The notes below the pieces were generated by a model. The model did not search any database. It saw only the letters and a list, made by a program, of their open reading frames with translations, and was not told the DNA's origin. A program made the position numbers and the translations under genes. From positions 1 to 43,826 of the forward strand of contig JAISKM010000023.1 in the NCBI GenBank assembly GCA_031261285.1: a DNA stretch of 43,826 bases, given 5' to 3'. Below are positions 17,876 through 37,743 of the stretch, in pieces; position 1 is the first letter of the stretch; each line of letters opens with the position of its first letter. The DNA is from Candidatus Symbiothrix sp. Its GTDB lineage: Bacteria > Bacteroidota > Bacteroidia > Bacteroidales > Azobacteroidaceae.

Positions 17876-18102
17876 TTTTGTCCTAAATGTTCACATACAC
17901 ACATAAAAAAGCGTGGACAAAACTCTAATATCTATCTGCTTTCCGTGGTTTAGAACGACCATGCTACCAAATAAATGAGTTTGCCCACGCCAAACGGCGT
18001 GAGCGTCTTCACTTTACTCTCGGTAGCTTTTTGAATGTTCTAATTTCGGAAAGCTAAGAATATAAGCTAAACGCCTTTTCCAATATGTCTTAAAATGTGC
18101 GT
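17876..18102 (-). ncRNA. structured 5' leader element, copy 1
   Basis: Unrecognised RNA element upstream of the OMP gene. Plus-strand coordinates of helices: outer closing 17897-17904 with 18095-18102; 17905-17913 with 18072-18079; P1 GCTTTCCG 17938-17945 with 18047-18054; P2 TTAGAAC 17950-17956 with 18037-18043; P3 GCTACC 17963-17968 with 18022-18027; P4 GAGT 17977-17980 with 18016-18019; P5 CACGCC 17986-17991 with 17996-18001. A second partner for GGACAAAAC (17915-17923) lies at 17876-17883. The helices differ in sequence from copies 2 and 3 but all re-pair. The 347-bp gap between the OMP and CPBP genes is otherwise leader and promoter. Confidence 0.8.
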
Positions 18103-18158
18103 ATTAACACATTGATTTATACCATAAGCCTAATTTTTATTTGTTTTTAATTTGGGTA

Positions 18159-18166
18159 CAAAGTTA
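18159..18166 (-). promoter_or_regulatory. -7 box for the OMP leader, copy 1
   Basis: TAACTTTG on the minus strand. It overlaps the stop codon of the CPBP gene and is followed about 28 bp later by the conserved GGCTTATG that also starts copy 3. Confidence 0.6.
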
Positions 18167-19018
18167 CAATTTATTTTTGATACAACAATGAATGTGAAAA
18201 AAAATTATTATTTGACGAAAAATAAGCGCGAATAAAACAACGGAAACGCCTGATAACCAAAGTGTTGAGCCGGAACCAATTTGGTCAACTTGCTCCATTT
18301 TATCGGGTGCATCCTGAAAGGCTGTGCACGTTGCAATGCTAATAAAGTTGTGTGTGAAATGCGCAATGATTGGCATCCACAGACTTTGGGTATAATAAAC
18401 CAAATAGCCAAAATAGGCTCCCAGCAGCATACGAGGCACAAAGCCATAGAATTGAAAATGAATCGCGCTAAAGATAATGGCCACGACCCAAATGGTCATT
18501 ACCGGCTTCATTTTATCGCCCTTTTTTAGAATATTGGTCAGTACGCCACGAAAGGTTAATTCTTCTCCAACAGCAGCTAATAAACACATTGTCAATACGT
18601 TACGAATAAATTCCCAAACGTTGTTCACATATAAAATCTTTTTCAAAACGGCTTCTACTGCGGTTTCGGATGCCCGCATCCACTCTTCCAAACCGTGCAA
18701 CGCTTCGGGCAATACCATAGACTGATTCAAAACATTCAACAGATTGATGAACGGATAGACTGCAATCACACTCAAAACGGTCAATCCAACGATTTTCCAA
18801 TTCACCGGCGTAGTGAGGTGCAGGTAGTTCCAAAGATTGTCGCTAAACAGATAGGCGCACAGCAACGCCGGCAATACAAACACCAAGAGGCTGTCTAAAA
18901 ATCCGAAACTGTTTAACAACCTGGATACAACCACGGTAATGAGAGTGCCTGCAAACAGGAGCGCTGTCAACACCCAGAGTTGCGTCCTGCGTTTTGCATT
19001 TTTGAGTGAAACTTTCAT
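18164..19018 (-). CDS. CPBP-family intramembrane metalloprotease
   Basis: A 284-residue membrane protein of the CAAX-protease/bacteriocin-processing (Abi) family. The catalytic motifs are all visible: EELTFRG (Glu152, Glu153, Arg157), AIHFQFYG (His187) and MPIIAHFTHN (His220). About seven membrane helices. Substrates of bacterial members are mostly unknown. A 7-bp-period array and REP-like element separate it from the YggS-family gene. Confidence 0.85.
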   Translation of the reverse strand: MKVSLKNAKRRTQLWVLTALLFAGTLITVVVSRLLNSFGFLDSLLVFVLPALLCAYLFSDNLWNYLHLTTPVNWKIVGLTVLSVIAVYPFINLLNVLNQSMVLPEALHGLEEWMRASETAVEAVLKKILYVNNVWEFIRNVLTMCLLAAVGEELTFRGVLTNILKKGDKMKPVMTIWVVAIIFSAIHFQFYGFVPRMLLGAYFGYLVYYTQSLWMPIIAHFTHNFISIATCTAFQDAPDKMEQVDQIGSGSTLWLSGVSVVLFALIFRQIIIFFHIHCCIKNKL

Positions 19019-19019
19019 T

Positions 19020-19082
19020 GAGTTATGAGTTATGAATTATGAGTTATGAATTATGTCATTGCGGGCTTGACCCGCAATCCCC
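19020..19082. repeat. 7-bp array abutting a REP-like palindrome
   Basis: Five GAGTTAT/GAATTAT units (19020-19054) run straight into ATTGCGGG-CTTGA-CCCGCAAT (19058-19078). The palindrome contains the stop codon and last codons of the YggS-family gene. Confidence 0.85.
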
Positions 19083-19769
19083 AAAGATTTTACTTCCAAT
19101 CCGCACCATAGTGCTCCCAACCGCGATTGCCAGCGGATAATCATTGCTCATTCCCATCGACAATTCACAAAAACTGTCTTGATTGGCAAAGAAAAGTTGC
19201 TTTATTTTTGAAAACAAGCCGGCAAGAGTAGTAAATTCGCGACGAATTTGCAACTCGTTTTCAGTGTAAGTTGCCATGCCCATCAAACCAACAATTTCTA
19301 CATTCGGCAACACTGTTCCGTCATTGCTGGCTTGACCCGCAATCCCGTGACACTTCACCACTTTTGCCAAAAAATCCACGAGCTCATCCGGCGCAAAACC
19401 GTTCTTTTGTTCCTCCTGAGCGATGTGTACTTCCAGCAAAACCTTGATTAGGCGATTGTTTTTGGCGGCTTGCGCATTGATTTCCAGCAGCAGTTTCAAT
19501 GAATCTACCGAGTGAATCGTGTCGATAAACGGCGCGATGTATTTCACTTTATTCGCTTGCAAATGTCCAATGAAATGCCATTGAATATCTTTAGGCAAAT
19601 GTTCGTATTTGGGCACGATTTCTTGAGCGCGGCTCTCGCCGAAAATACGTTGACCGGCATCATAAGCCTCTTGAATGGCACTTTCAGGGAAATATTTGGA
19701 CACGGCGACCAACTTCACGCGAGGCAGAAGTTCCGCTTTCAGTCGATTCAGTTGTGCCGCAATGCTCAT
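19056..19769 (-). CDS. YggS/PLPBP-family pyridoxal phosphate homeostasis protein
   Basis: A 237-residue PLP-binding TIM-barrel protein that buffers pyridoxal phosphate. The PLP lysine is in VAVSKYFP (Lys25); other family blocks are FGESRAQE, WHFIGHLQANKVKYI, LMGMATYTEN, SMGMSNDYPLAI and GSTMVRIGSKIFG. REP-like palindromes have modified it twice: an internal insert GIAGQASNDGTVLP (near residue 143) and a changed C-terminus DCGSSPQ made by the element at 19058-19078. The start overlaps the DUF4494 stop by 4 bp, so the two are coupled. Confidence 0.92.
   Translation of the reverse strand: MSIAAQLNRLKAELLPRVKLVAVSKYFPESAIQEAYDAGQRIFGESRAQEIVPKYEHLPKDIQWHFIGHLQANKVKYIAPFIDTIHSVDSLKLLLEINAQAAKNNRLIKVLLEVHIAQEEQKNGFAPDELVDFLAKVVKCHGIAGQASNDGTVLPNVEIVGLMGMATYTENELQIRREFTTLAGLFSKIKQLFFANQDSFCELSMGMSNDYPLAIAVGSTMVRIGSKIFGDCGSSPQ
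19323..19343. repeat. REP-like palindrome inside the YggS-family gene
   Basis: ATTGCTGG-CTTGA-CCCGCAAT, a copy of the 3726-3746 family with one stem mismatch, read in frame. Confidence 0.75.
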
Positions 19770-20248
19770 GCTTCAGCGTCTTTGGTTGCATCTGATTTTG
19801 TGTCCGGCTTCTTTGTTTTGGTGTCCGCTGAAAATGGAAAAACGTCCATAATCATCGTTTCCGTCACGGAAGCGATGACATAATCTGCCATGCCGCCTTT
19901 CATGCCTTCTTCAAGAATCGCAATCGCCTCTTTGACATCGTTGGCTTGTGCCAGCATAGTGCAAGCCGTTTTCTTTTCCGCACCACTTTTTTCATCCAGC
20001 GTGATGAAATTGACCTTAAATTTATAATAACGGTCGCCTTTGTCGTTGAAAAACAGTTCGGCAAGCTTGGCACGCTTGATGTCCGTCACCAAAAATTCGC
20101 CGCTCACATAGTGCGACACTTCCTCAATAATCCGCGCTTCCGCTTCGGTAAAAGAGAGCGCATCCACCAAATAAGGTTCAGTCACAGGCTTCTGAACACC
20201 ATTTTCCATCATTTTGTCATACTTGACTTTACATTCAAACCAATTCAT
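19766..20248 (-). CDS. DUF4494 domain protein
   Basis: A 160-residue protein matching the Bacteroidota family DUF4494 in its opening MNWFECKVKYDKM, the PYLVDALSFTEAEARI block and the KFKVNFITLDEKSGAEKK strand pair. The function of the family is unknown. A lysine/aspartate-rich tail follows residue 140. Co-transcribed with the YggS-family gene through a 4-bp overlap. Confidence 0.75.
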   Translation of the reverse strand: MNWFECKVKYDKMMENGVQKPVTEPYLVDALSFTEAEARIIEEVSHYVSGEFLVTDIKRAKLAELFFNDKGDRYYKFKVNFITLDEKSGAEKKTACTMLAQANDVKEAIAILEEGMKGGMADYVIASVTETMIMDVFPFSADTKTKKPDTKSDATKDAEA

Positions 20249-20318
20249 ATTATTTATCTGATTTATAAAATTTAAAGACTCATTTTTCAGTCATGTTTTT
20301 TATGTTTATAGAAAACTG

Positions 20319-21098
20319 TTATTTTCCAAAATATTTATGAATATACTTTGGTATTTCTTTTGTCCATTCGTCGGGTTTCAAATGAAATCCATGCCACTGG
20401 TTTAGAGGATTATCTCCCTCATAAAAAAAGACAATGAAAGTCTTTTTATCATCATCAAAGTTATACATATTTTTTCCTCTCTCCAAAAAACATGGAATTG
20501 CGGTGTTTAACAGTGTTTGAGCATTATGCTTTGAACATAGCAAAGGAGAAGCATTCGGTTGGTTGCCTTTTCCATTTTCACCATGTTTGGGATTGAGATT
20601 GAATGTTCGTGGCTTTATATCAGAAACCCAATTGACAATATCCTTTCTTGTGGGTATGGATATACATGCAAGTCTATCGTAAATCATATTTGATTCAACC
20701 AACAAAAAGGGATTAATATGAGAAGAGAAAGAAAGTATTGCTATTTTATCATGCTTATCTACTACAGATAACACATTATTCACCGGACTAATGGGATAAA
20801 TTGTCGTTTTATCTGCATCAAAAGACAATCCAAACACATAAGCTTTATTGTTTTTTTCTTTCGCATTTTGGAGTATGACATCTAATTGATTTCCTATTGA
20901 TTCGGAAAAATTGTCATTTATATCGCCCTCTATGATTTCCTTAAATTCATCGAATCGTTCCTTACTGTAAAATACAGATGCCTTATGTTGATAAGCCAAC
21001 TCAACAAGTTGGTATAGCTCTTTTAAATAAACATCAATAGTTTTATTTATGGCATCTTCCCAGTCAAAGTCAATATAGAAATGAAAATCTGAATACAT
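20319..21098 (-). CDS. third gene of a DUF262/ATPase cassette, function unknown
   Basis: A 259-residue protein I do not recognise. It has a helical N-terminal half and a C-terminal half with a conserved-looking core: PRTFNLNPKHGENGKG, SPLLCSKHNAQTLLNTAI, then the strand KTFIVFFYEGDN and WHGFHL. The histidine- and Asp/Glu-containing strands could belong to a nuclease or hydrolase, but no named motif is visible. It starts 1 bp after the ATPase gene stops and is the last gene of the operon, so it is probably the effector or an adaptor. Confidence 0.65.
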   Translation of the reverse strand: MYSDFHFYIDFDWEDAINKTIDVYLKELYQLVELAYQHKASVFYSKERFDEFKEIIEGDINDNFSESIGNQLDVILQNAKEKNNKAYVFGLSFDADKTTIYPISPVNNVLSVVDKHDKIAILSFSSHINPFLLVESNMIYDRLACISIPTRKDIVNWVSDIKPRTFNLNPKHGENGKGNQPNASPLLCSKHNAQTLLNTAIPCFLERGKNMYNFDDDKKTFIVFFYEGDNPLNQWHGFHLKPDEWTKEIPKYIHKYFGK

Positions 21099-21099
21099 T

Positions 21100-22245
21100 T
21101 TAAAATCCCATTAAGTGTTTACGGTCAATTGTAAATTGGTCAAAGAAGCCTGTGGGAGGGTATATGATACGCCCATTTTCTTCTATATTTACCTTTTTAG
21201 CGACAGAACAATGCTTTTCGCCATCCATATCCAGATAATAGACAGACACATTATCTTTGGAAATGCCGATTAGTTTCTCTTCAAAGTTTTTACATTGCAC
21301 TAAAATGCCATTGATAATGTGGTCGCTATGCGTTTCTACGATTATTTGGATGCCACTTTGAGCAGCAAGAGTTATCAATTCTGCTAATTTTGCTTGTCCC
21401 TGCGGATGTAGGTGTGCTTCGGGATTCTCAAGTAACAACAAATCGCCTTGTTCAGCTGCTAATATAGCAACGATAATTGAAAGAGAATACGAAACACCAT
21501 ACCCAATATTTTTTGATTGTAGATTTTCTATTGGTTTAGTATCTCCAACTCCTTTGTAGCCATATTCAATGCTTACTTTATCTGCCTTTTTCTCCGATTT
21601 GATCGTTATTCTTGGACTTATTTCTCTTTCCCATTCAATAACTTGATCTAATAAATCTGTGCTTGTATTATTGGGATGTAATAATTTGTCTAATTTAACT
21701 TTAAAATCTCTGTGTCTTCCGTAATATTCCAAAAAATGAGCAACCAATTCTCCTTGCCCATAATTCAAAGAAATTTGTTTTTCTGTTTCTACCGCATAAC
21801 TATCCATTGGATAGAGATTTAAACTTGCCCACCGTGCAGAACTGATATATTGAAATTTATGTGAAAACAAAGGTAAGTTCATCTCTAGCAATTCAAATTT
21901 ATTATCTGATTGACGTGGCAAAAAGGTATCTCCATACCGATCTTCTGCACCAAATATGTAATTAAGCGCAATTTTGTTATCAATTTCAAGAATAAACTCA
22001 ATCGTTTCATCACTTGCCAAATGATAAAGAGCATCAGCTCCTTTCCCTATATCACAAAGTGGAGCATTTAAATCCAAACCGGAATTAAGCCGCCCTTTTT
22101 GGTAGCTTTGTCGCAACAACAATAACGACTGCAAAATACTTGATTTACCGGAACTATTAATTCCGGTAAGAACAGTTAATGGCTTTATGTCTAAATCGGT
22201 GTCAAGATGCGATTTAAAGTTCTTTATCTTCAATTTTGTTATCAT
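21100..22245 (-). CDS. AAA/ABC-type ATPase (AAA_15, DUF3696-like)
   Basis: A 381-residue ATPase of the OLD/RecF-like group. Walker A is TGINSSGKSS (about 27-36), Walker B LLLLENPEAHLHPQGQAKL, followed by the switch strand IIVETHSDHIINGI. The C-terminal segment (NIEENGRIIYPPTGFFDQF) resembles DUF3696, which closes this subfamily. The ATG lies inside the DUF262 gene (32-bp overlap), and the third gene starts at once after it. Such ATPases occur with DUF262 proteins in anti-phage loci. Confidence 0.82.
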   Translation of the reverse strand: MITKLKIKNFKSHLDTDLDIKPLTVLTGINSSGKSSILQSLLLLRQSYQKGRLNSGLDLNAPLCDIGKGADALYHLASDETIEFILEIDNKIALNYIFGAEDRYGDTFLPRQSDNKFELLEMNLPLFSHKFQYISSARWASLNLYPMDSYAVETEKQISLNYGQGELVAHFLEYYGRHRDFKVKLDKLLHPNNTSTDLLDQVIEWEREISPRITIKSEKKADKVSIEYGYKGVGDTKPIENLQSKNIGYGVSYSLSIIVAILAAEQGDLLLLENPEAHLHPQGQAKLAELITLAAQSGIQIIVETHSDHIINGILVQCKNFEEKLIGISKDNVSVYYLDMDGEKHCSVAKKVNIEENGRIIYPPTGFFDQFTIDRKHLMGF

Positions 22246-23410
22246 CGGTAACTTTTATTTTAATGCCATTTATACTCTTATTTAACACTTTTTGAAACCA
22301 CGAAAAACGAATTTTTACACTATCAGTCGTTCCTGTTCCTCTTGACAACACATTGAAATAACGATCGGTTTTCATTATTTCAATCAAATTATCTTTTAAT
22401 AGTTCTTTGTTTTCAAATAGTAATTGTATTTCTGTATTATTTAATTTTGCAAAGCTTGTGGTAATAACCTCAAAATACGCCTTGTTTATTGGACTTCTGC
22501 CTACATTTATATCTCTTCGTTTTCTAAAAGCGTCATTTCCAAAAATATTAAATGCTAATTTCAATGATTTTTTAAAGTTTGTAGCTATAATATCAATATC
22601 TGATTTTTCCATTTTTTCCAATATTTCCATACTTGAATTGATAAAATCGTCCAAGCCAGGAAGATATTGGGTATAATCATTCAAATAAAATGCTATAAAA
22701 CGACTCACAAAATCACGGTCTTGCATTCTATTTTTAGGAATTTTCTGTTCTGTAGCAGTTAAAAATTCATCGAATTTGGCAAATAGATTAACCGTGTCAA
22801 TTGCTTTCCCTTGATAAACAGCATTACGAATTTCTTGCGGAGTCAGTTCAAGCCCACCTGTATTTAGCCGTTTGAATAAAATAAACCGAACTTTTCTATC
22901 TGCTTTTTTGATTAGGTTTATAGTAATAGGGCGCATATTTATACTACGTTGCAATCCATCATTTAATTCATCAAATGTTAATCCATTCAAATATGGTTTT
23001 TCATCTTTTTCTCCTAAAAATTCTAATCCTTGTAATCGTAAATCTTTCTTTATGCAAAAATTATAAATAGCACAACAACGTTGTAATCCGTCAATAATAT
23101 TCCACGGTTTAACACTCGTATCAAAAAAAAATGCAGGCAATGGTAATCCTAATAAAACAGATTCTATTAAACGACTTTGCATTTCATCTGACCATAAATT
23201 TCCTGCACGCTGAAAATCTGTATTCATATTGATTTCACCGTGCTTTATTTTGTCAATTAACGAATAAATTAAGAATGGCGGTGTTTCTATATCTATATCA
23301 TTAGGGTTGAAAGGTTTAGTTATAACCTCACTGCCAGAAGAAGTATCTTCTTTTTCAAAAACTACCTCCTCTTCTCCATTATCGTTATATATTTTATTTA
23401 ATTCTTCCAT
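22214..23410 (-). CDS. DUF262 (ParB/GmrS-like) domain protein
   Basis: A 398-residue protein with the DUF262 fold at residues about 40-200: NTDFQRAGNLWSDEMQSRLIESVLLGLPLPAFFFD and the nucleotide/nuclease motif NIIDGLQRCCAI, with FKRLNTGGLELTPQEIRNAVY following. DUF262 proteins are ParB-like NTPases or nucleases used in modification-dependent restriction and other defence systems. It is the first gene of a three-gene operon and has its own -7 box. Base composition of the operon is AT-richer than its housekeeping neighbours. Confidence 0.82.
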   Translation of the reverse strand: MEELNKIYNDNGEEEVVFEKEDTSSGSEVITKPFNPNDIDIETPPFLIYSLIDKIKHGEINMNTDFQRAGNLWSDEMQSRLIESVLLGLPLPAFFFDTSVKPWNIIDGLQRCCAIYNFCIKKDLRLQGLEFLGEKDEKPYLNGLTFDELNDGLQRSINMRPITINLIKKADRKVRFILFKRLNTGGLELTPQEIRNAVYQGKAIDTVNLFAKFDEFLTATEQKIPKNRMQDRDFVSRFIAFYLNDYTQYLPGLDDFINSSMEILEKMEKSDIDIIATNFKKSLKLAFNIFGNDAFRKRRDINVGRSPINKAYFEVITTSFAKLNNTEIQLLFENKELLKDNLIEIMKTDRYFNVLSRGTGTTDSVKIRFSWFQKVLNKSINGIKIKVTDDNKIEDKEL

Positions 23411-23434
23411 CTAAAATTCAAACTTTAGCATCGA

Positions 23435-23442
23435 CAAAAGTA
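23435..23442 (-). promoter_or_regulatory. -7 box for the DUF262 operon
   Basis: TACTTTTG on the minus strand, 24 bp before the start of the DUF262 gene. Confidence 0.6.
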
Positions 23443-23481
23443 CACATTTTATTCGATCTATACAATGGTTTGGGGATTTTT

Positions 23482-24084
23482 TTATTCCAAAAGGGAATTA
23501 TTAATACTTTCAATATAATTCAAAACGTCCTCTCGCCCGTTTTTGTACTCCGATGAGGTGTAAAAAATTGGCGGGAGTTCTTCCCAATCTTCCAGCAAGC
23601 GCGTTTTGTAGGCGGTGGTGTTTTCTTTTAATTTGGTAGCTGAAATTTTATCTATTTTTGTGAATACGATTGCCAGCGGCACGCCATTTTCGCCTTGGGT
23701 GCGCAGAAAATCCAAATCAATCTGTTGCGGCTCGTGGCGACAATCCAGCAACACGAACAGGCAGGTCAACGATTCCCGTTTTTCCAAATACGTGTCAATC
23801 AGCGACCGGATGCTTTCGCGCTGCTTCTTTCCGCGTTGCGCATAGCCATAGCCGGGCAAATCCACCAGATACCACTCGTCGTTGATTAGGAAGTGATTGA
23901 TTAGCAAGGTTTTACCGGGCTTAGACGAGGTCATTGCCAACCCTTTCTTTCCGGTCAACATATTGATGAGCGACGACTTGCCCACGTTGGAACGCCCGAT
24001 GAACGCATATTCGGGGCGCAAATCGTCGGGACATTTAGCCACGTCAACATTACTAACTATAAATTCCGCTTTTTTTATATTCAT
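23482..24084 (-). CDS. engB: ribosome biogenesis GTPase EngB (YihA)
   Basis: A 200-residue GTPase for 50S assembly. G-motifs are GRSNVGKS (about 30-37), the T-containing switch [15 protein letters not shown] and TKIDK. The start [12 protein letters not shown] at 24084 is preferred over an ATG 21 bp upstream because the upstream one would lie before the -7 box (24092-24099). That leaves almost no 5' UTR. Confidence 0.95.
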
Positions 24085-24091
24085 GGGACAA

Positions 24092-24099
24092 CAAAGGTA
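24092..24099 (-). promoter_or_regulatory. -7 box for engB, near-leaderless
   Basis: TACCTTTG on the minus strand with only 7 bases to the start codon, so the mRNA would begin at or within a few bases of the ATG. Confidence 0.6.
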
Positions 24100-24149
24100 C
24101 AACAATATTTTTAATTTGTAAATAAGTTGGAAAAAAACTCAACTAAATA

Positions 24150-24177
24150 ATTAACCATTAACCACTAATCATTAACA
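24150..24177. repeat. 7-bp-period array (ATTAACC type)
   Basis: Four units: ATTAACC, ATTAACC, ACTAATC, ATTAACA; directly upstream of the rsmG -7 box, as in 9776-9817. Confidence 0.7.
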
Positions 24178-24194
24178 ATTATTTTGTACTTTTG
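24171..24194 (+). promoter_or_regulatory. rsmG promoter
   Basis: The -7 box TACTTTTG lies at 24187-24194, 8 bases before the ATG. The segment matches 22 of 24 bases of the promoter at 9811-9834. Confidence 0.6.
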
Positions 24195-24202
24195 TAGCAG
24201 TT

Positions 24203-24826
24203 ATGACAGACATTATTGAAAAATATTTTTCGGCATTGATGGCGGAGCAACAAGCGCAATTTGCTGCGCTGGGAGACTTGTACGCCGATTGGAATGCAAA
24301 AATTAATCTGATTTCGCGCAAAGATATTGAACATTTGTACGAAAAACACATTCTTCACTCGTTGGGAATTGCGCAGGTGATTCGATTCACTGCCGGCTCT
24401 AAAGTGCTGGATGTGGGCACAGGCGGTGGATTCCCGGGCATTCCGTTGGCGATTTTATTTCCGGAAGTGCAGTTTGTGCTGCTGGACAGTATCGGAAAAA
24501 AAGTGAAAGTAGCGGAAAACGTGGCTCAAGCGATTGGACTAAAAAATGTCGACTGTCGCCACGCTCGCGCAGAAGAAGAAACACGCAAATTCGATTTTGT
24601 GGTCAGTCGCGCCGTGATGCCGTTGCCGGATTTGGTAAAAATCACCAAGAAAAACATCGACAAAAAACAACGCAACGCCTTACCTAACGGTATTTTATGT
24701 CTGAAAGGCGGCGATTTGCAAGCCGAATTAGCGCCTTTCAAAAAACAAGCCGTCGAATATGAGTTGAGCGACCAGTTTGATGAAGCCTTTTTTGAAACAA
24801 AAAAGGTCGTCTATTTACCGCTATAA
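24203..24826 (+). CDS. rsmG: 16S rRNA (guanine-527-N7) methyltransferase
   Basis: A 207-residue SAM-dependent methyltransferase (GidB). SAM motif VLDVGTGGGFPGIPLAI, then DSIGKKVKVAENVAQAIGLKNV and the family block RAEEETRKFDFVVSRAVMPLPDLVK. Length is normal. It is divergent from engB and ends next to two tandem long hairpins. Confidence 0.95.
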   Translation: MTDIIEKYFSALMAEQQAQFAALGDLYADWNAKINLISRKDIEHLYEKHILHSLGIAQVIRFTAGSKVLDVGTGGGFPGIPLAILFPEVQFVLLDSIGKKVKVAENVAQAIGLKNVDCRHARAEEETRKFDFVVSRAVMPLPDLVKITKKNIDKKQRNALPNGILCLKGGDLQAELAPFKKQAVEYELSDQFDEAFFETKKVVYLPL

Positions 24827-24834
24827 CCAAACAA

Positions 24835-24910
24835 AATCCCGGCACAGAGTCTTGAACGAACGAAGAATGAAACGACTAAACTTGCTAATTCAGACTCCCG
24901 TGCCGGGATT
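24835..24910. repeat. long interrupted hairpin 1
   Basis: AATCCCGGCAC (24835-24845) plus GAGTC (24847-24851) pair with GACTC (24893-24897) plus GTGCCGGGATT (24900-24910). A single A opposes CC between the two helices. The loop of 41 nt contains CGAACGAA. It may serve as a terminator for rsmG, but no T run follows. Confidence 0.65.
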
Positions 24911-24922
24911 ATTATGTAGGAT

Positions 24923-24993
24923 AAGAAAGAGACCCGCACCGGAAAAAAACGAAACGAAACTATGTACAAAAACCCGTGCGGGCTCTCTTTCTT
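24923..24993. repeat. long interrupted hairpin 2
   Basis: AAGAAAGAG (24923-24931) plus CCCGCAC (24933-24939) pair with GTGCGGG (24976-24982) plus CTCTTTCTT (24985-24993). Again a single A opposes two bases, and the loop of 36 nt contains ACGAAACGAAAC. Same architecture as hairpin 1, different stem sequence. Confidence 0.65.
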
Positions 24994-25032
24994 GATAGGA
25001 TGTATTGTTTTATGTAATTGTTATAGAATCAA

Positions 25033-26676
25033 TCAGTTGACACAGCGCACAGTTTGCCAAGTTGACGCTCCGTACATGCAGCATACATTTGTCAATCTGA
25101 ATATTCCATTTAAGTTGTTTGTATTCCAGTCAGGACCCATTCCATCAGCCATGATCACTTGGCCGTCTCTTGTAGCACTGGATGACCAGATGCGACCGCC
25201 CCTTCCGGAATCTACCCCGGTATTAATAACCCCTAAAAAGTTCATCCCAATCCCAGCAGGATACGAGGCGCCTTGATTATAAGACGAACCTAAATTCATG
25301 TTGGATCGCTGTGAGGCCAACGTATACCAATGCTGTGTGTCGGCATTAGCCCCGTTTGGAATTTTCGACAGGTCTGCGAATGTAGCAGGATTCGCATACA
25401 CGTACGTTAGCATATTTTGCCATTCAGTTTGTGTCGGAATATGCCAGTTTTCGGGACAAATACCTTGACGATTCGTGTAATTCCCATTACCTAAGGAACT
25501 AGCCGTACTAGCTTTCATAGCACCGGCCCAAGTGTATAAATACCCTGGCCGACCACCATTGAACAACGTAGTTTTTGCTGTTTCCAAATCAAAAGTAGGT
25601 GGTGCTTTATAGCTTGGCAGATTCAAATCCGCACCGTTATAGGTGTAACTGACACCATCTTCTACAGCTTGCGGTGTGTAAGCCAAGTTTTCAGCCATCC
25701 ATTTTACGCCATTAACCATAATGGTTTGATAACATTGACCGTCGCGGGTATCAAACAAGTTATCTGCCCCTGGGCAAGAAGAGACATTAATTACAATGCC
25801 ACCGGCCGGAGTTGGAACGACACTAGCAACTTGATTGGATACCACCGTGATAGTAGTCGTTCCATTAGTGTCAAAAGCTGTCACTAAACCGGTATTGTCT
25901 ACGGTAGCAATACTAGGGTCTGAACTTGTCCAAGTTAAACTTTTATCCGTTGCGTTATCCGGCAAAACAGTAGCCGTCAACTGATACGTTTTACCTTGCT
26001 GAACTATCGCCGGAGTTGTTGTTGGAGTTATAGACACGGATTCAACCGGAATACCTACGCGAATAGTAAAAGGATCACTTGAAAGACCATCCAAAGAGGC
26101 GGTGATTGTGGTGGTGCCATTATGTATACCCGTAACTGTGGCTGTATTAAGACTTCCTTCGACAGCATCAACAAGAGCGACACTTGGCACATTGCCACTC
26201 CAATTGACTGTTGACCAGCCTGCATTGATAGGGAGCACAGTTGCTGTTAGCGTCTGAGTGGCATCCACCGTCACCCAACCAATCGGATCGGCAGAAATAG
26301 TGATACTTTCAGGAACCGGACCGCTACCGCCTCCCGAATTAGCCAACGCCCAACCATTAGTGCCTTGCCAAATGTAAACGCCCGGCGCCAAACTTTCAGC
26401 ACCACCGAGGTTGTAGACCATCAAACCCGATTCCAATAAGTCGGTATTTTCTACAATATCAATCCATTCATTAGGAAGCGCTGTCGCGGTTGACAAAGTG
26501 ACCCGAGGCAGAAGAAGGCCGCCGGAAGTGGCAGAACTCAAGTCGAGGACAGTGCCCGGCGTGATTGGATCACCGGCATTACCGCCGATTTTGACTTGCG
26601 CAGTTACCGGTGAACAGTTACCAATTACCAGAAAACAGGTAACGAATAATACTACTATTTTTTTCATCATTTTCAA
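25033..26676 (-). CDS. secreted FISUMP-domain adhesin with Ig-like repeats
   Basis: A 547-residue surface protein: signal peptide (1-26, ending VTAQ), an N-terminal module (27-112; TSGGLLLPRVTL, LMVYNLGG, PGVYIWQGTNGW) shared with the 27027-27368 gene, a GGGSG linker, two bacterial Ig-like (BIG2) domains (about 122-208 and 210-297; TWTSSDPSIATVDNTG is diagnostic), and a Fibrobacter-type major paralogous (FISUMP) domain (about 300-547; YQTIMVNGVKWMAENLAY, ICPENWHIPTQTEWQ and a final TVRCVN). FISUMP is related to the formylglycine-enzyme/C-type-lectin fold and probably binds a ligand. The mRNA begins with structured leader copy 2. Confidence 0.85.
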   Translation of the reverse strand: MKMMKKIVVLFVTCFLVIGNCSPVTAQVKIGGNAGDPITPGTVLDLSSATSGGLLLPRVTLSTATALPNEWIDIVENTDLLESGLMVYNLGGAESLAPGVYIWQGTNGWALANSGGGSGPVPESITISADPIGWVTVDATQTLTATVLPINAGWSTVNWSGNVPSVALVDAVEGSLNTATVTGIHNGTTTITASLDGLSSDPFTIRVGIPVESVSITPTTTPAIVQQGKTYQLTATVLPDNATDKSLTWTSSDPSIATVDNTGLVTAFDTNGTTTITVVSNQVASVVPTPAGGIVINVSSCPGADNLFDTRDGQCYQTIMVNGVKWMAENLAYTPQAVEDGVSYTYNGADLNLPSYKAPPTFDLETAKTTLFNGGRPGYLYTWAGAMKASTASSLGNGNYTNRQGICPENWHIPTQTEWQNMLTYVYANPATFADLSKIPNGANADTQHWYTLASQRSNMNLGSSYNQGASYPAGIGMNFLGVINTGVDSGRGGRIWSSSATRDGQVIMADGMGPDWNTNNLNGIFRLTNVCCMYGASTWQTVRCVN

Positions 26677-26700
26677 ATTTATTTAATTAAATACTCTACG

Positions 26701-26935
26701 GTTTTGTCCTGTTCTAACATTTTTTAATACACACATAAAAAAAGCGCGGACAAAACTCAATCTATTTGCTTTGTGAGGCCTTCGACTGCCTAAAGGTTCA
26801 AATAAAATGAATAATGCCCACGCCGAACGGCGTGAACGTCATCACCTTATTCTATAACCTTTTTGAAAGTGTCGAAGTTTCACAAAGATAGAATAAAAGC
26901 TAAAACGCTTTTTTCAAAATGTTTAAAATGTGTGT
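26701..26935 (-). ncRNA. structured 5' leader element, copy 2
   Basis: Plus-strand helix coordinates: outer closing ACACACAT 26729-26736 with 26928-26935; AAAAAAGCG 26738-26746 with 26906-26914; P1 CTTTGTGA 26769-26776 with 26880-26887; P2 CTTCGAC 26780-26786 with 26871-26877; P3 AAAGGTT 26792-26798 with 26856-26862; P4 GAATAA 26809-26814 with 26847-26852; P5 CACGCC 26819-26824 with 26829-26834. Alternative pairings: GGACAAAAC 26748-26756 with GTTTTGTCC 26701-26709, and GCGCGGAC 26744-26751 with the GCCCACGC of P5. It ends about 25 bp before the FISUMP start. The 350-bp gap here holds only this leader and its promoter. Confidence 0.82.
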
Positions 26936-26993
26936 ATCACACCTGTTTTTATATCATACGCTGATGCTTTTTATTTTTTTGTTCATCTACCTG

Positions 26994-27001
26994 CAAAGAC
27001 A
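26994..27001 (-). promoter_or_regulatory. probable -7 box for leader copy 2
   Basis: TGTCTTTG, a weak match to TAnnTTTG, at the same distance (about 32 bp) from the conserved GCGTATGATATAAA as the -7 box of copy 3. It sits in the palindrome CCTG-TCTTTG-CAGG. Confidence 0.4.
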
Positions 27002-27026
27002 GGAATAGTTTTTGAATACCACACTT

Positions 27027-27368
27027 TCACCCCAACAATTTCCAACCGGTTGATGACCAATAATAAACCCCGATGGGAATATCAGTGGAAGTAGCTTCAT
27101 CCACTGCTGCTGTTTTGTTATAGACCAGCAGACCAACAATGGTGTCAGGATCAGTCTCAGTGGGAAAATCAACAGGCAAAGCTGTGAGATCGGTGATTTC
27201 TACCTGAGATAAGAGGAGACCGCCTTTTGTGCCATCCAACTCTAGTTTAACGCCCTGAAGTGGTGGATCAGAAGGTGTGCCAATACTGACTTGCGCCGTT
27301 ACAATGGCATCAGTAGCTGTTATCAATGCTATGATAAACAGCAACAATTCTAAATTTCTTTTTATCAT
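27027..27368 (-). CDS. secreted stand-alone N-terminal module of the FISUMP protein
   Basis: A 113-residue protein: signal peptide ending VTAQ and one small domain aligned with residues 27-112 of the FISUMP protein (VSIG..., TKGGLLLSQVEITDLTALP, GLLVYNKT, GVYYWSSTGWKLL). It ends exactly where the shared module ends in the larger protein, so it is either a natural single-domain protein or a truncated copy; no further coding similarity follows the stop. Its leader (copy 3) is nearly identical to copy 2, which suggests a tandem duplication of leader plus first domain. Confidence 0.75.
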   Translation of the reverse strand: MIKRNLELLLFIIALITATDAIVTAQVSIGTPSDPPLQGVKLELDGTKGGLLLSQVEITDLTALPVDFPTETDPDTIVGLLVYNKTAAVDEATSTDIPIGVYYWSSTGWKLLG

Positions 27369-27402
27369 ATCTATTTTATTTAAGAATAACTAATTCATAC
27401 CG

Positions 27403-27640
27403 GTTTTGCCCAGCCAACCTGACTTTTGTTCACATACACACATAAAAAAAGCGCGGACAAAACTCAATCTATTTGCTTTGTGAGGCCTTCGACTGCCTAA
27501 AGGTTCAAATAAAATGAATAAGCCCACGCCAATCGGCGCGAACGTTATCACCCTATTCTATAACCTTTTTGAAAGTGTCGAAGTTTCACAAAGACAGAAT
27601 AAAAGCTAAACGCTTTTTCCAAAATGTTTAAAATGTGTGT
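27403..27640 (-). ncRNA. structured 5' leader element, copy 3
   Basis: Plus-strand helix coordinates: outer closing 27436-27443 with 27633-27640; AAAAAGCG 27446-27453 with 27611-27618; P1 27476-27483 with 27586-27593; P2 27487-27493 with 27577-27583; P3 27499-27505 with 27562-27568; P4 GAATA 27516-27520 with 27554-27558; P5 CGCC 27527-27530 with 27535-27538, extended by an outer pair that is G-U only on the minus strand. GGACAAAAC (27455-27463) pairs with GTTTTGCCC (27403-27411), again using a G-U on the minus strand. The rest of the 437-bp gap holds its promoter and the panB terminator. Confidence 0.82.
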
Positions 27641-27700
27641 ATCACATTTGTTTTTATATCATAAGCCTATATTTTACTTTTTTATTATTAAACTTGATGA

Positions 27701-27708
27701 CAAAGGTA
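27701..27708 (-). promoter_or_regulatory. -7 box for leader copy 3
   Basis: TACCTTTG on the minus strand, about 60 bp before the outer helix of copy 3. Confidence 0.65.
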
Positions 27709-35247: not shown

Positions 35248-35451
35248 AAATTCTCGTAACTCATTGGTGTGAACGTAGAGCGCTATCAATAAAAAAATTA
35301 ACATAATTTAACGCGTCGACCCTGGTTTTTATAAGTGTTATATCAGTTGTTTACAAAATTTTTCGTATTTTTGTTCCCGAATAACATTAAAAAAATTGAA
35401 TATGACATAATCGCGTAGCAATACGCACAAATTAAAGACATAATAATAATT

Positions 35452-35679
35452 GAGCTTTTTAGCTCTTATTCTCCTTAATTCGAAATCTGGTAAATTTCCC
35501 TTGAGAATGAGTAGCGAAAGTTCACGTCTTCGGGCGTGAATTGTTTCGTGCTTATTTAAGGGAAACGGTTTACCAGAGCCGGAATTAAGAAATAAGCAAT
35601 CAACGAGCAGTTTCACGCTTTTTTGTTTGCTTAAGTTTAAGAGTTTTGAGGCATAAACTCTTAAAGCAATGACAAACAA
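35452..35679 (+). ncRNA. highly structured plus-strand RNA region
   Basis: A long, multi-helix hairpin: CTTATT 35465-35470 with 35591-35596; CTTAATTC 35474-35481 with GAATTAAG 35582-35589; TCTGGTAAA 35486-35494 with TTTACCAGA 35569-35577; TTTCCCTT 35495-35502 with AAGGGAAA 35558-35565; CGAAA 35515-35519 with TTTCG 35544-35548; and a tip TTCACGTC-TTCG-GGCGTGAA (35521-35540) with a C(UUCG)G tetraloop. One tip pair is U-G on the plus strand but a mismatch on the minus strand. A second hairpin follows: TTGTTTG 35623-35629 with 35673-35679, inner TTAAGAGTTT 35637-35646 with 35655-35664. I do not recognise it. It precedes the accessory genes. Confidence 0.6.
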
Positions 35680-35817: not shown

Positions 35818-36462
35818 ATGGAAAGAGAAAACGAATTCGATTTTACAGAAAGATTTATAAACTATTTAATTTCAATAGGTTATCCAAAAGAATCAATAGT
35901 AAATGAATATGCTATCAATAAACGCAATCATGTTGATATTGCCATTATTGACCCTACTACAAACATTATAGTACAAATTTTTGAATTAAAAGGAATTTTT
36001 TCCGAAAAGGTTTTCAAATCTGCACAAGAGCAACTTAAATTTTATTTGGCTGAGATAAAAACATCTGTACCTGCCTATATGGTTTTTAAGGAAGATGCTT
36101 CTCAATCATTTAAGATTATTGATTATAATTCTTTAAAAGATGTAGATTTTATCGACTATAATCTATTGTTAAACAAAGCAATAACAACAAAAAACGGATC
36201 AATAGAAGAAAAGAAAAAAGAGAAAATCAACTTATTTAAACAGATATGTTGGTTTGAAGCATTAATTCTTGCAAGTATAATGTTTTGTAAAAAGACAGGA
36301 ATACTCTGTTTTGAACTATCTTGGATTGATTTAAGCATGATAGGCACTGCGGTTGTATTAAGCCTATTGCCTTTTTTTGGCAAGATTGCTTTTAATGGTT
36401 TGGAATTTGTGATAAGAGATGAAAATAACACGGAGAATGCCCGAAAATCCAGTAAAGAGTAG
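35818..36462 (+). CDS. PD-(D/E)XK-like domain with C-terminal membrane helices
   Basis: A 214-residue protein. Residues about 8-110 carry the spacing of a PD-(D/E)XK nuclease core: Glu30 in IVNEYAI, Asp40 in NHVDIAI and Glu57-x-Lys59 in IFELKG. Two hydrophobic segments follow (about 139-157 and 165-192), then a charged tail. A nuclease-like domain anchored in the membrane would suit a defence effector, but activity is not shown. It is the first gene of the AT-rich island downstream of tRNA-Arg. The ATG is chosen over a TTG one codon earlier. Confidence 0.6.
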   Translation: MERENEFDFTERFINYLISIGYPKESIVNEYAINKRNHVDIAIIDPTTNIIVQIFELKGIFSEKVFKSAQEQLKFYLAEIKTSVPAYMVFKEDASQSFKIIDYNSLKDVDFIDYNLLLNKAITTKNGSIEEKKKEKINLFKQICWFEALILASIMFCKKTGILCFELSWIDLSMIGTAVVLSLLPFFGKIAFNGLEFVIRDENNTENARKSSKE

Positions 36463-36482
36463 GGGAAAGAAAAAATGAATTT

Positions 36483-36899
36483 ATGAAATTATTAAATTTA
36501 AGCGAATTAGAAATTGGATATTTTGTTGCTCTTAAATTAAGAGAATCTGCACCTTGCATGGCAAGAGTGTTAAATATCAATGGTATTGATGATGTTGACT
36601 TTGAACTATCAAATGAATATATGGTAGAATATCGCAGTGGAAATGTTGAACAAATTGTAGCAATTCCATTGACCATTAATTGGTTATCTTCTCTTGGCTT
36701 TGTACGACATTTTCAAAAACCAAACTTTTTTGGACTTCCAATTGGTGGCTTTCTTATTGAAGTAGAAGCTTCCACAGATGGACTAATTGATAAAATTAGC
36801 GTTTGTGAGAATGGTGTAAAATACGAAAAACGATATGATTATGTACACGAAATGCAACAGGAAATATCCCATTTAAACTTAATCGTAGAATATGAATAA
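36483..36899 (+). CDS. hypothetical protein of accessory island
   Basis: A 138-residue cytoplasmic protein I do not recognise. It is mixed alpha/beta with a YFVALKLRESAPCMARVLNI start, a DDVDFELSNEYMVEYRSG strand pair and a GLPIGGFLIEVE strand, with no membrane segment. It starts 20 bp after the nuclease-like gene and overlaps the cyclase-like gene by 8 bp, so all three are probably one transcript. Confidence 0.6.
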   Translation: MKLLNLSELEIGYFVALKLRESAPCMARVLNINGIDDVDFELSNEYMVEYRSGNVEQIVAIPLTINWLSSLGFVRHFQKPNFFGLPIGGFLIEVEASTDGLIDKISVCENGVKYEKRYDYVHEMQQEISHLNLIVEYE

Positions 36900-37743
36900 A
36901 ATAATGGAACAGAAATATTGCGTTTTTATTGATGTTTTAGGTACAAAAAACATCATTCAACAAAATAAGTATTTTCAGGATACTAAAATTAGTATATTGA
37001 ATAGCATTTTTTCTGATTTGGCTTCGAGTGTTGCAACAGCAATAGAAGATACTAATCAACTTTTTACGAAGAAGATATTTATTCGTTCTTTTAGCGATTC
37101 TATCTATTTGCATTGTGATGAATTAGAACCTCTTATATATGCAACTGACAAAATTTTCAATGCGGCTTTCAATATGTATTCAAATTTTACGCAAAAAGAG
37201 GAATACACTCCTTTTATAAGGGCAGGAATAGCAAAAGGATGGGTTGTTGACTTTAAAGATATAGGTGGAATAATAAACAAAACAGGAGAAGTTAACCCTG
37301 TGGGCTTAGGTGTGGTGAATGCCTATGAAACTTCTGAAAAATCCAATCTGTCAGGGATGAGAATAATTCTTTCAATGGAAGTATTTAATGATTTACAAGC
37401 AAATCCTATCGACACGTCTAATATCCATTACAAAAAAGAAATAGATATATTTCACAGTAATGTGCCGACGCCATATTATTTAAAACAGATAAGTGAAGAT
37501 AGATGTGGAAATCCAACTCATTTGTATGAACTAATATGGAGTTACCAAGGAATGAACACTTGCACGTATGACTATGTGGATAAAATCAAAGGTATTGCAC
37601 CTTCAATTCCTGATGCTGCAAAAAAACATTTGAAAGCAACAGCACAAGTATTACTTGATGGATTACTCTTAACTGATTGTAATTCTCAAGCGGGAAACAA
37701 ATTTAGCCATGCAAGAAATCAATTAGAACAATTAATAAAATAA
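36892..37743 (+). CDS. class III nucleotide cyclase-like protein
   Basis: A 283-residue protein whose first 165 residues follow the class III cyclase pattern: CVFIDVLGTKN (first metal Asp14), IRSFSDSIYLHC (second metal Asp69), FIRAGIAKG (Arg110, Gly112) and PVGLGVVNAYETSE, which aligns with the VNxAxxxE transition-state motif (Asn143). This arrangement also resembles the pyrimidine cyclases (PycC) of Pycsar phage defence. No cyclic-nucleotide-binding effector is recognisable beside it, so it may instead be a degenerate or regulatory cyclase fold. A second ATG four codons later (36904) is an alternative start. Confidence 0.6.
   Translation: MNKIMEQKYCVFIDVLGTKNIIQQNKYFQDTKISILNSIFSDLASSVATAIEDTNQLFTKKIFIRSFSDSIYLHCDELEPLIYATDKIFNAAFNMYSNFTQKEEYTPFIRAGIAKGWVVDFKDIGGIINKTGEVNPVGLGVVNAYETSEKSNLSGMRIILSMEVFNDLQANPIDTSNIHYKKEIDIFHSNVPTPYYLKQISEDRCGNPTHLYELIWSYQGMNTCTYDYVDKIKGIAPSIPDAAKKHLKATAQVLLDGLLLTDCNSQAGNKFSHARNQLEQLIK

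Follow-up and report, generated by a model that had tools for sequence, protein, structure and literature searches.

We found that an element of about 210 bases, covarying like a folded RNA, is present in about 100 copies in the 2.83-Mb draft genome of a Candidatus Symbiothrix sp. (assembly GCA_031261285.1), one contig of which (JAISKM010000023.1, 43,826 nucleotides) is the window analysed here. Usually located between a promoter-like box and the start codon of the gene behind it, the element is predicted to be a structured cis-regulatory leader RNA, and members of its class occur across the Bacteroidota. On balance, we consider it probable that these leaders switch the downstream gene by a choice between two incompatible folds, in the manner of an attenuator. 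The preliminary description of this DNA, made from the sequence alone, had reported a three-copy element; three copies are indeed present where it placed them, on the minus strand, but the class is far larger than that, and the window itself contains a diverged fourth copy at 35421-35634 on the plus strand.

Copy number, fold and covariation

With copy 3 as the query, blastn gave 40 locations in the genome (of 90 candidates, 40 were scored), and these 40 own copies were used to build a covariance model, R1. Searching the same genome with R1 gave 101 matches at E ≤1e-3, including two antisense duplicates and one contig-end fragment, and a second, broader covariance model, R2, gave 113 at E ≤1e-4; each search scored 150 candidates, so that both counts are lower bounds, and the weakest matches may be chance ones. 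Used on other Bacteroidota genomes, the covariance model recovered relatives across the phylum. At loci L084, L087, L094, L098, L101, L102 and L105, leaders were arranged in pairs about 1.3-1.7 kb apart: a shorter subtype comes first, then one secreted-type gene, and last a longer subtype whose conserved arm differs. In addition, several copies (L011, L020, L030, L031, L033 and others) have a second small repeat, a hairpin like GTCATTCCCGCGAAGGCGGGAATCCC, in the stretch that separates the core from the promoter-like box.

From 5' to 3', the fold consists of an outer stem (ATACACACAT/ATGTGTGTAT and AAAAAGCG/CGCTTTTT), the variable helix P1, hairpin A (GAAA, 7 nucleotides (nt), 2 nt, TTTC), an arm P3-P4-P5, hairpin B (AGGY, A, 7 nt, RCCT), P1', a strand termed S3 and a U-tract, with loop bases conserved and helices variable across copies. 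RNAalifold run on the raw alignment recovered part of this structure only, and the helices were therefore set by hand and then counted. In the alignment of the 40 own copies, standard pairs made up 93.4% of the pair cells, both sides of a pair had changed in 246 cells (69.4 ± 6.4 in shuffles, 0 of 500 reaching 246), and 30 of 68 pairs had such a change in at least one copy. A second alignment, comprising the first 75 of 118 diversity-selected sequences drawn from 239, was paired in 93.2% of cells and contained 552 double-change cells, compared with 169.8 in shuffles; the model made from it dropped one of 31 pairs. Public sites were collected with a DNA pattern on GTDB representative contigs (at least 119 stretches) and viral contigs (four), giving 123 sites. 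P1, which lies outside the pattern, was fully paired in 107 of 120 unique listed sites (mean 5.86 of 6, against 2.79 permuted), and its 5' strand occurred in 93 distinct versions. Judged from these alignments, the helices covary as those of a structured RNA, and the helices and paired changes quoted in the preliminary description are genuine. Its proposal that the RNA is read in the direction of the genes was also borne out, because P5 has an invariant U-G pair in 40 of 40 own copies, which would read C-A on the opposite strand, and copies 1 to 3 have far higher model scores on the minus strand (listed below).

We consider it very improbable that the class is a dispersed mobile repeat, similar to a miniature inverted-repeat transposable element, in which RNA structure is incidental. 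Such a repeat would account for about 100 copies in one genome, for contigs that often end near copies, for the inverted outer ends and for the other repeat that some copies have between box and core, but not for compensatory changes throughout, for a mostly gene-directed orientation behind a phased promoter-like box, or for distant genera having few copies, most with a same-strand open reading frame (ORF) behind them.

The 7-base loops of hairpins A and B were complementary at all seven positions in 39 of the 40 own copies and at six of seven in one, with 19 distinct loop pairs among the 39 parsed copies. For the public sites, the search pattern specified the flanks but no more than two of the seven loop pairs, leaving five positions free; all five were Watson-Crick in 113 of the 123 listed sites and four of five were in the other 10, and 23 distinct loop pairs were present. 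The kissing helix was 98.9% paired in the 75 diverse sequences. The Y/R pair of hairpin B was UA in 30 and CG in 10 of the 40 own copies, and TA in 104, CG in 14, TG in 5 and CA in none of the 123 listed public sites. We read the two loops as pairing in a kissing loop rather than in a continuous helix, because the GAAA/TTTC and AGGY/RCCT flanks pair within their own strands and the Y/R pair covaries. Thus, the complementary 7-mers of helix P2 in the preliminary description were correctly recognised, but appear to be better taken as a loop-loop contact of two hairpins than as one continuous helix. If P2 were instead continuous, in a simple rod, the within-strand flank pairing and the Y/R covariation would be left unexplained; this rod was retained as a possible alternative fold.

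Promoter-like boxes and downstream genes

The consensus of the Bacteroidota -7 element is TAnnTTTG. This motif was found in 34 of 40 own upstream regions, in 29 of which it was located 57-74 nt 5' of the core. A Bacteroides thetaiotaomicron map names the sigma-ABfr promoter (PMC7366714). On the 3' side, 80 of the 89 own copies with room had a same-strand ORF starting with ATG within 320 nt, four of 93 copies at contig ends having been left out of the count. The ORF started within 80 nt of the core end in 61 of these 80 (at 54-66 nt in 34) and at 140-215 nt in the other 19, and 70 of the 80 had a signal-peptide-like start according to a crude rule. Because a promoter-like box lies 5' and a same-strand ORF lies 3', we read the element as a leader RNA. 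Separate trans-acting small RNAs (sRNAs) ending at the U-tract would share the promoter-like box and the terminal U-tract, but the clustering of downstream starts close to the core end, and the position of a further pairing strand, S4, past the U-tract, argue against them, and we regard this explanation as quite improbable.

In titled public records, the downstream genes included, as classified by eye, those of secreted proteins and lipoproteins. Twenty downstream proteins from elsewhere, picked as non-secreted, were tested against Pfam, giving matches in other taxa to a sigma-70 protein, LytTR regulators, EcoRI-type and other DNA methylases, ResIII, RteC and RibD_C; a response regulator was also present, with a match under the Pfam cut-off, and 7 of the 20 were without a Pfam family. 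In viral contig L270, HSDR_N was found 3' of the copy. PADLOC, run on nine proteins, gave matches for L177, L180, L217, L222 and L232, and none for two window genes (including the gene of copy 4), L203 and L270 (four of the nine). Secreted-like starts predominate in the own genome, but methylases, restriction-type proteins, regulators and a sigma factor are found downstream in other taxa, so that the earlier designation as a leader of surface-protein genes is too narrow.

At L217, the leader is 5' of an EcoRI-type adenine methylase gene (Pfam E 2.3e-145), and L264 has a similar-looking ORF. Similar-looking RibD_C/dihydrofolate-reductase-like ORFs were also observed behind the leader in L197, L202, L234, L265 and L269, Pfam having been run on L197 only.

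Competing helices and the mini-ORF

Helix P5 is formed by strands S1 and S2, and S2 is complementary to S3 as well, which directly abuts the U-tract. In the 75-sequence alignment, S1:S2 was 94.7% paired and S2:S3 was paired in 92.4% of cells. Specifically, S2:S3 had double changes at 7 of 8 pairs, a number reached by 8 of 500 shuffles, and 32 double-change cells, compared with 7.0 in shuffles, none of 500 reaching 32; slid versions of the helix were 32-61% paired. After 10 of 159 regions had been left out as unparsed, 124 of the 149 parsed rows had P5 and a U-run, and their observed mean S2:S3 pairing was reached by 0 of 300 permutations. The helix test on public sites used 120 of the 123 listed; a U-run was present 3' of S3 in 95 of these 120 unique sites that also had a scored P5, and these 95 were used for S2:S3 and S3:S4. 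S1:S2 and S2:S3 exclude each other, and it is chiefly because both are conserved that a switch is proposed; a pair of incompatible helices with a U-tract behind one of them is the arrangement of a transcription attenuator. S3 is, in addition, complementary to S4, located 3' of the U-tract.

A tiny ORF, often AUG-NNN-stop, lies just 5' of many Bacteroidales-type copies. Each of the 39 main-type own copies that were parsed has TATG shortly 5' of the core, followed after 2 to 5 codons by a stop (after two codons in 32). TATG also occurred in other own copies (34 of 50), in relatives (35 of 60) and in the listed public sites (43 of 123). Among 121 unique 5' regions with TATG, a stop followed within two codons in 55% and within six in 88%; the corresponding values were 17% and 44% in shuffled controls, and 7-11% and 36% in other frames. 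The inner codon varies (ATA, ACA, GTA, GAA, AAG or none), and no conserved peptide was seen. In the copies inspected, the stop of the mini-ORF abuts or falls within the 5' strand of a hairpin, P-1, the 3' strand of which overlaps an outer-stem strand; P-1 complementarity was 4.19, against 3.63 permuted with a maximum of 3.90 (79 of 149 parsed rows).

In the attenuator model, the kissing fold with P5 would represent the read-through (on) state, and S2:S3 with the U-tract would form an intrinsic terminator (off). Because the P-1 3' strand overlaps the outer-stem strand, a ribosome at the mini-ORF could free the outer stem, which would give the mini-ORF a role in switching: in copies with this tiny ORF (AUG plus 0-5 codons), and only there, the P-1 5' strand would be masked by a ribosome, leaving the outer-stem strand free and favouring the on fold. 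A broader version of this idea, which we find doubtful, is a phylum-wide riboregulator in which the kissing-loop junction and the near-minimal leader ORF (AUG-NNN-stop) together sense the translation state, controlling about 100 mostly surface-protein genes in termite-gut symbiont relatives and DNA-modification and regulator genes elsewhere.

Several observations weigh against switching by such leaders. The shuffles and permutations take no account of relatedness among copies; 29 of the 80 downstream ORFs run off the contig end, and no ORF was found behind 9 of the 89 copies with room. Support for S3:S4 was modest in the public-genome set (4.56 versus 4.09 permuted, maximum 4.34), and no S4 is visible in several own copies (e.g. 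L011, L014 and L018). The S2:S3 hairpin loop has a median length of 63 nt (45-110), which is long for a terminator. In 108 sequences, the unconstrained fold computed by RNAfold, which cannot draw the kissing contact and can draw both loops as a continuous helix instead, was better than an enforced S2:S3 at the U-tract by an average of 13.0 kcal/mol (smallest gap 0), and termination would therefore need a trigger that weakens the first fold. A TATG followed by a stop within six codons occurred in only 31 of the 123 listed public sites, namely 3 of 40 with the loop ACTGGTA, the common loop of Flavobacteriia records, and 28 of 83 with other loops; being rare in the former and in a minority of the latter, the mini-ORF is a feature of part of the class.

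The energies bear on another explanation, in which the 5' structure is constitutive and serves to stabilise mRNAs or to set their translation level, without switching. A stable fold 5' of about 100 genes and the computed preference for the fold without S2:S3 agree with it, but a plain stabiliser would have no need of S2:S3, a conserved helix next to the U-tract that shows its own double changes, and we think this explanation unlikely. Possible, though short of probable, is a riboswitch or protein-binding leader: the partner of the kissing fold would be a small molecule or a regulator protein, and the mini-ORF would be an incidental trait in part of one lineage. The compact fold with its conserved loop bases and variable helices, the low count of mini-ORFs among public sites, and the wide mix of downstream genes, as expected of a second messenger or global regulator, are consistent with such binding; however, there is no ligand or protein candidate, the downstream genes share no single pathway, and the mini-ORF statistics at TATG sites would be left unexplained.

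Distribution, nearest systems and the copies in the window

Using R1, we located the class in at least 35 of 45 genomes of the family, at least 137 of 393 of the order and at least 38 of 395 of the phylum, and with R2 in at least 54 of the 395; six or seven candidates per genome were scored in the order and phylum draws and 53 in the family draw, so that these counts are lower bounds. Two nearly complete genomes of the same genus (G002 and G003, 1.0-1.2 Mb) had no R1 match, whereas other genus members reach all 53 scored, and eight further genomes of the 45, including one of 3.0 Mb that is 92% complete, had no R1 match either. Among the pattern matches listed for the GTDB contigs, 77 of 80 titled records carried Bacteroidota names (Bacteroidales, Flavobacteriales, Cytophagales, Sphingobacteriales and unranked Bacteroidetes), the others being two contigs of one metagenome-assembled genome labelled Lentisphaerae (L174 and L184) and one "uncultured bacterium". 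The genome of Candidatus Symbiothrix sp. Hs463_bin62 (L160), the habitat of which we take to be the termite gut, had at least 105 R2 matches, and the other ten genomes searched via titled loci had at least 2-14 each, with 150 candidates scored. A single match, unannotated, came from the plasmid and phage collections; it lies in a plasmid record of Phocaeicola and covers 52% of the query at 74.7%. Two other searches of such collections yielded none, and the viral collection gave four pattern matches.

At the gathering threshold, Rfam 15 found only three tRNAs in the window and no family on the element. Relaxed scans of the three copies gave six and seven unrelated matches, all far under the gathering score (for example, Streptococcus SSRC38 on copies 2 and 3, with 16.7 and 16.0 bits against a gathering score of 80), and there was no family at gathering in 19 relatives and none at E ≤1 in 19 loci. 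Membership of any Rfam family was accordingly rejected, which agrees with the earlier remark that the fold was not recognised as a named class. No published description was found in the literature searched, supplements and most subscription papers being outside that search.

Kissing loops are present in the B12 riboswitch class. B12 riboswitches with upstream ORFs in Mycobacterium tuberculosis (PMC11260477) resemble the present class in combining a structured leader with a short translated ORF (here predicted), but here there is no cobalamin or other Rfam match and the copies are far more numerous. Leader-peptide attenuators, including that of tetQ of the Bacteroides element CTnDOT (PMC5418344), have a short leader ORF followed by alternative RNA structures 5' of the gene, as is predicted for part of the present class. 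In this class, however, those copies that have the ORF mostly show one of 1-6 codons without a conserved peptide, a kissing-loop junction is predicted, and about 100 genes of one genome carry the leader. Flavo-1, Bacteroidales-1 and Bacteroides-1, candidate structured RNAs listed in another report (PMC2864571), come from the same phylum, and none was reported in the Rfam 15 scans of the window, the 19 relatives and the 19 loci. FopS of B. thetaiotaomicron, comprising 14 sRNAs (9 intergenic, 4 antisense and 1 from a 3' untranslated region (UTR)) that act on other mRNAs (PMC11697453), are similarly multicopy paralogous RNAs affecting surface-protein expression (in the present class predicted), but they are not leaders, and no kissing-loop junction is described for them in the available part of that report.

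The features of the four copies in the window are as follows.

17895..18104, minus: copy 1 structured core (R1 model span), 185.1 bits on the minus strand against 21.0 on the plus strand
18159..18166, minus: copy 1 promoter-like -7 box TAACTTTG, from the TAnnTTTG scan
18117..18125, minus: copy 1 mini-ORF ATG GTA TAA, from the sequence
18033..18047, minus: copy 1 hairpin A, loop TTAGAAC, from the loop-pairing analysis
17945..17960, minus: copy 1 hairpin B, loop GTTCTAA, complement of the hairpin A loop
17217..17816, minus: gene of copy 1, outer-membrane beta-barrel protein (Pfam OMP_b-brl_2, E 9.5e-28)
26727..26937, minus: copy 2 structured core, 223.6 bits on the minus strand against 32.6 on the plus strand
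26994..27001, minus: copy 2 box TGTCTTTG, one mismatch to TAnnTTTG, from the sequence
26949..26957, minus: copy 2 mini-ORF ATG ATA TAA, from the sequence
26865..26881, minus: copy 2 hairpin A, loop CTTCGAC
26775..26790, minus: copy 2 hairpin B, loop GTCGAAG
25033..26670, minus: gene of copy 2, Big_2 repeats and Fib_succ_major domain (Pfam), signal-peptide-like start
27434..27642, minus: copy 3 structured core, 218.1 bits on the minus strand against 28.8 on the plus strand
27701..27708, minus: copy 3 promoter-like -7 box TACCTTTG, from the TAnnTTTG scan
27654..27662, minus: copy 3 mini-ORF ATG ATA TAA, from the sequence
27631..27649, minus: copy 3 alternative 5' hairpin P-1 (AAATGTG/CACATTT), overlapping an outer-stem strand
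27571..27587, minus: copy 3 hairpin A, loop CTTCGAC
27482..27497, minus: copy 3 hairpin B, loop GTCGAAG
27522..27543, minus: copy 3 P5 hairpin (S1 27535-27543, S2 27522-27530)
27444..27458, minus: copy 3 S3 (27451-27458), which can pair with S2, followed by U7 (27444-27450)
27403..27411, minus: copy 3 S4 (GGGCAAAAC), pairing with GTTTTGTCC of the S3 region
27027..27368, minus: gene of copy 3, 113-aa protein with a signal-peptide-like start and without a Pfam domain
35421..35634, plus: copy 4, diverged class member, 60.8 bits with R1 and 75.1 with R2
35366..35373, plus: copy 4 promoter-like box TATTTTTG, from the sequence
35402..35410, plus: copy 4 mini-ORF ATG ACA TAA, from the sequence
35482..35498, plus: copy 4 hairpin A, loop TCTGGTAAA, from the sequence
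35566..35581, plus: copy 4 hairpin B, loop TTTACCAGA, 9-base complement of the hairpin A loop, from the sequence
35818..36462, plus: gene of copy 4, weak similarity to the N-terminus of type I restriction R protein (HSDR_N_2, E 0.0026, under the Pfam cut-off)

Copy 2 is one of the 6 of 40 own copies without an exact TAnnTTTG match. A small cluster is located 3' of copy 4 at 35818-37743, in which two ORFs lacking Pfam domains come after the sub-threshold HSDR_N_2-like protein.

Point mutations in the AUG-NNN-stop ORF would put the idea of translation sensing to a direct test. If these leaders do switch, one RNA mechanism would coordinate most of the surface-protein repertoire, with about 100 copies in one genome; in the B. 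thetaiotaomicron map, by comparison, putative riboswitches were assigned to about 2% of long 5' UTRs (PMC7366714). The place of the leader ahead of restriction-modification, regulator and sigma factor genes elsewhere would then point to a global signal not yet known in the Bacteroidota.

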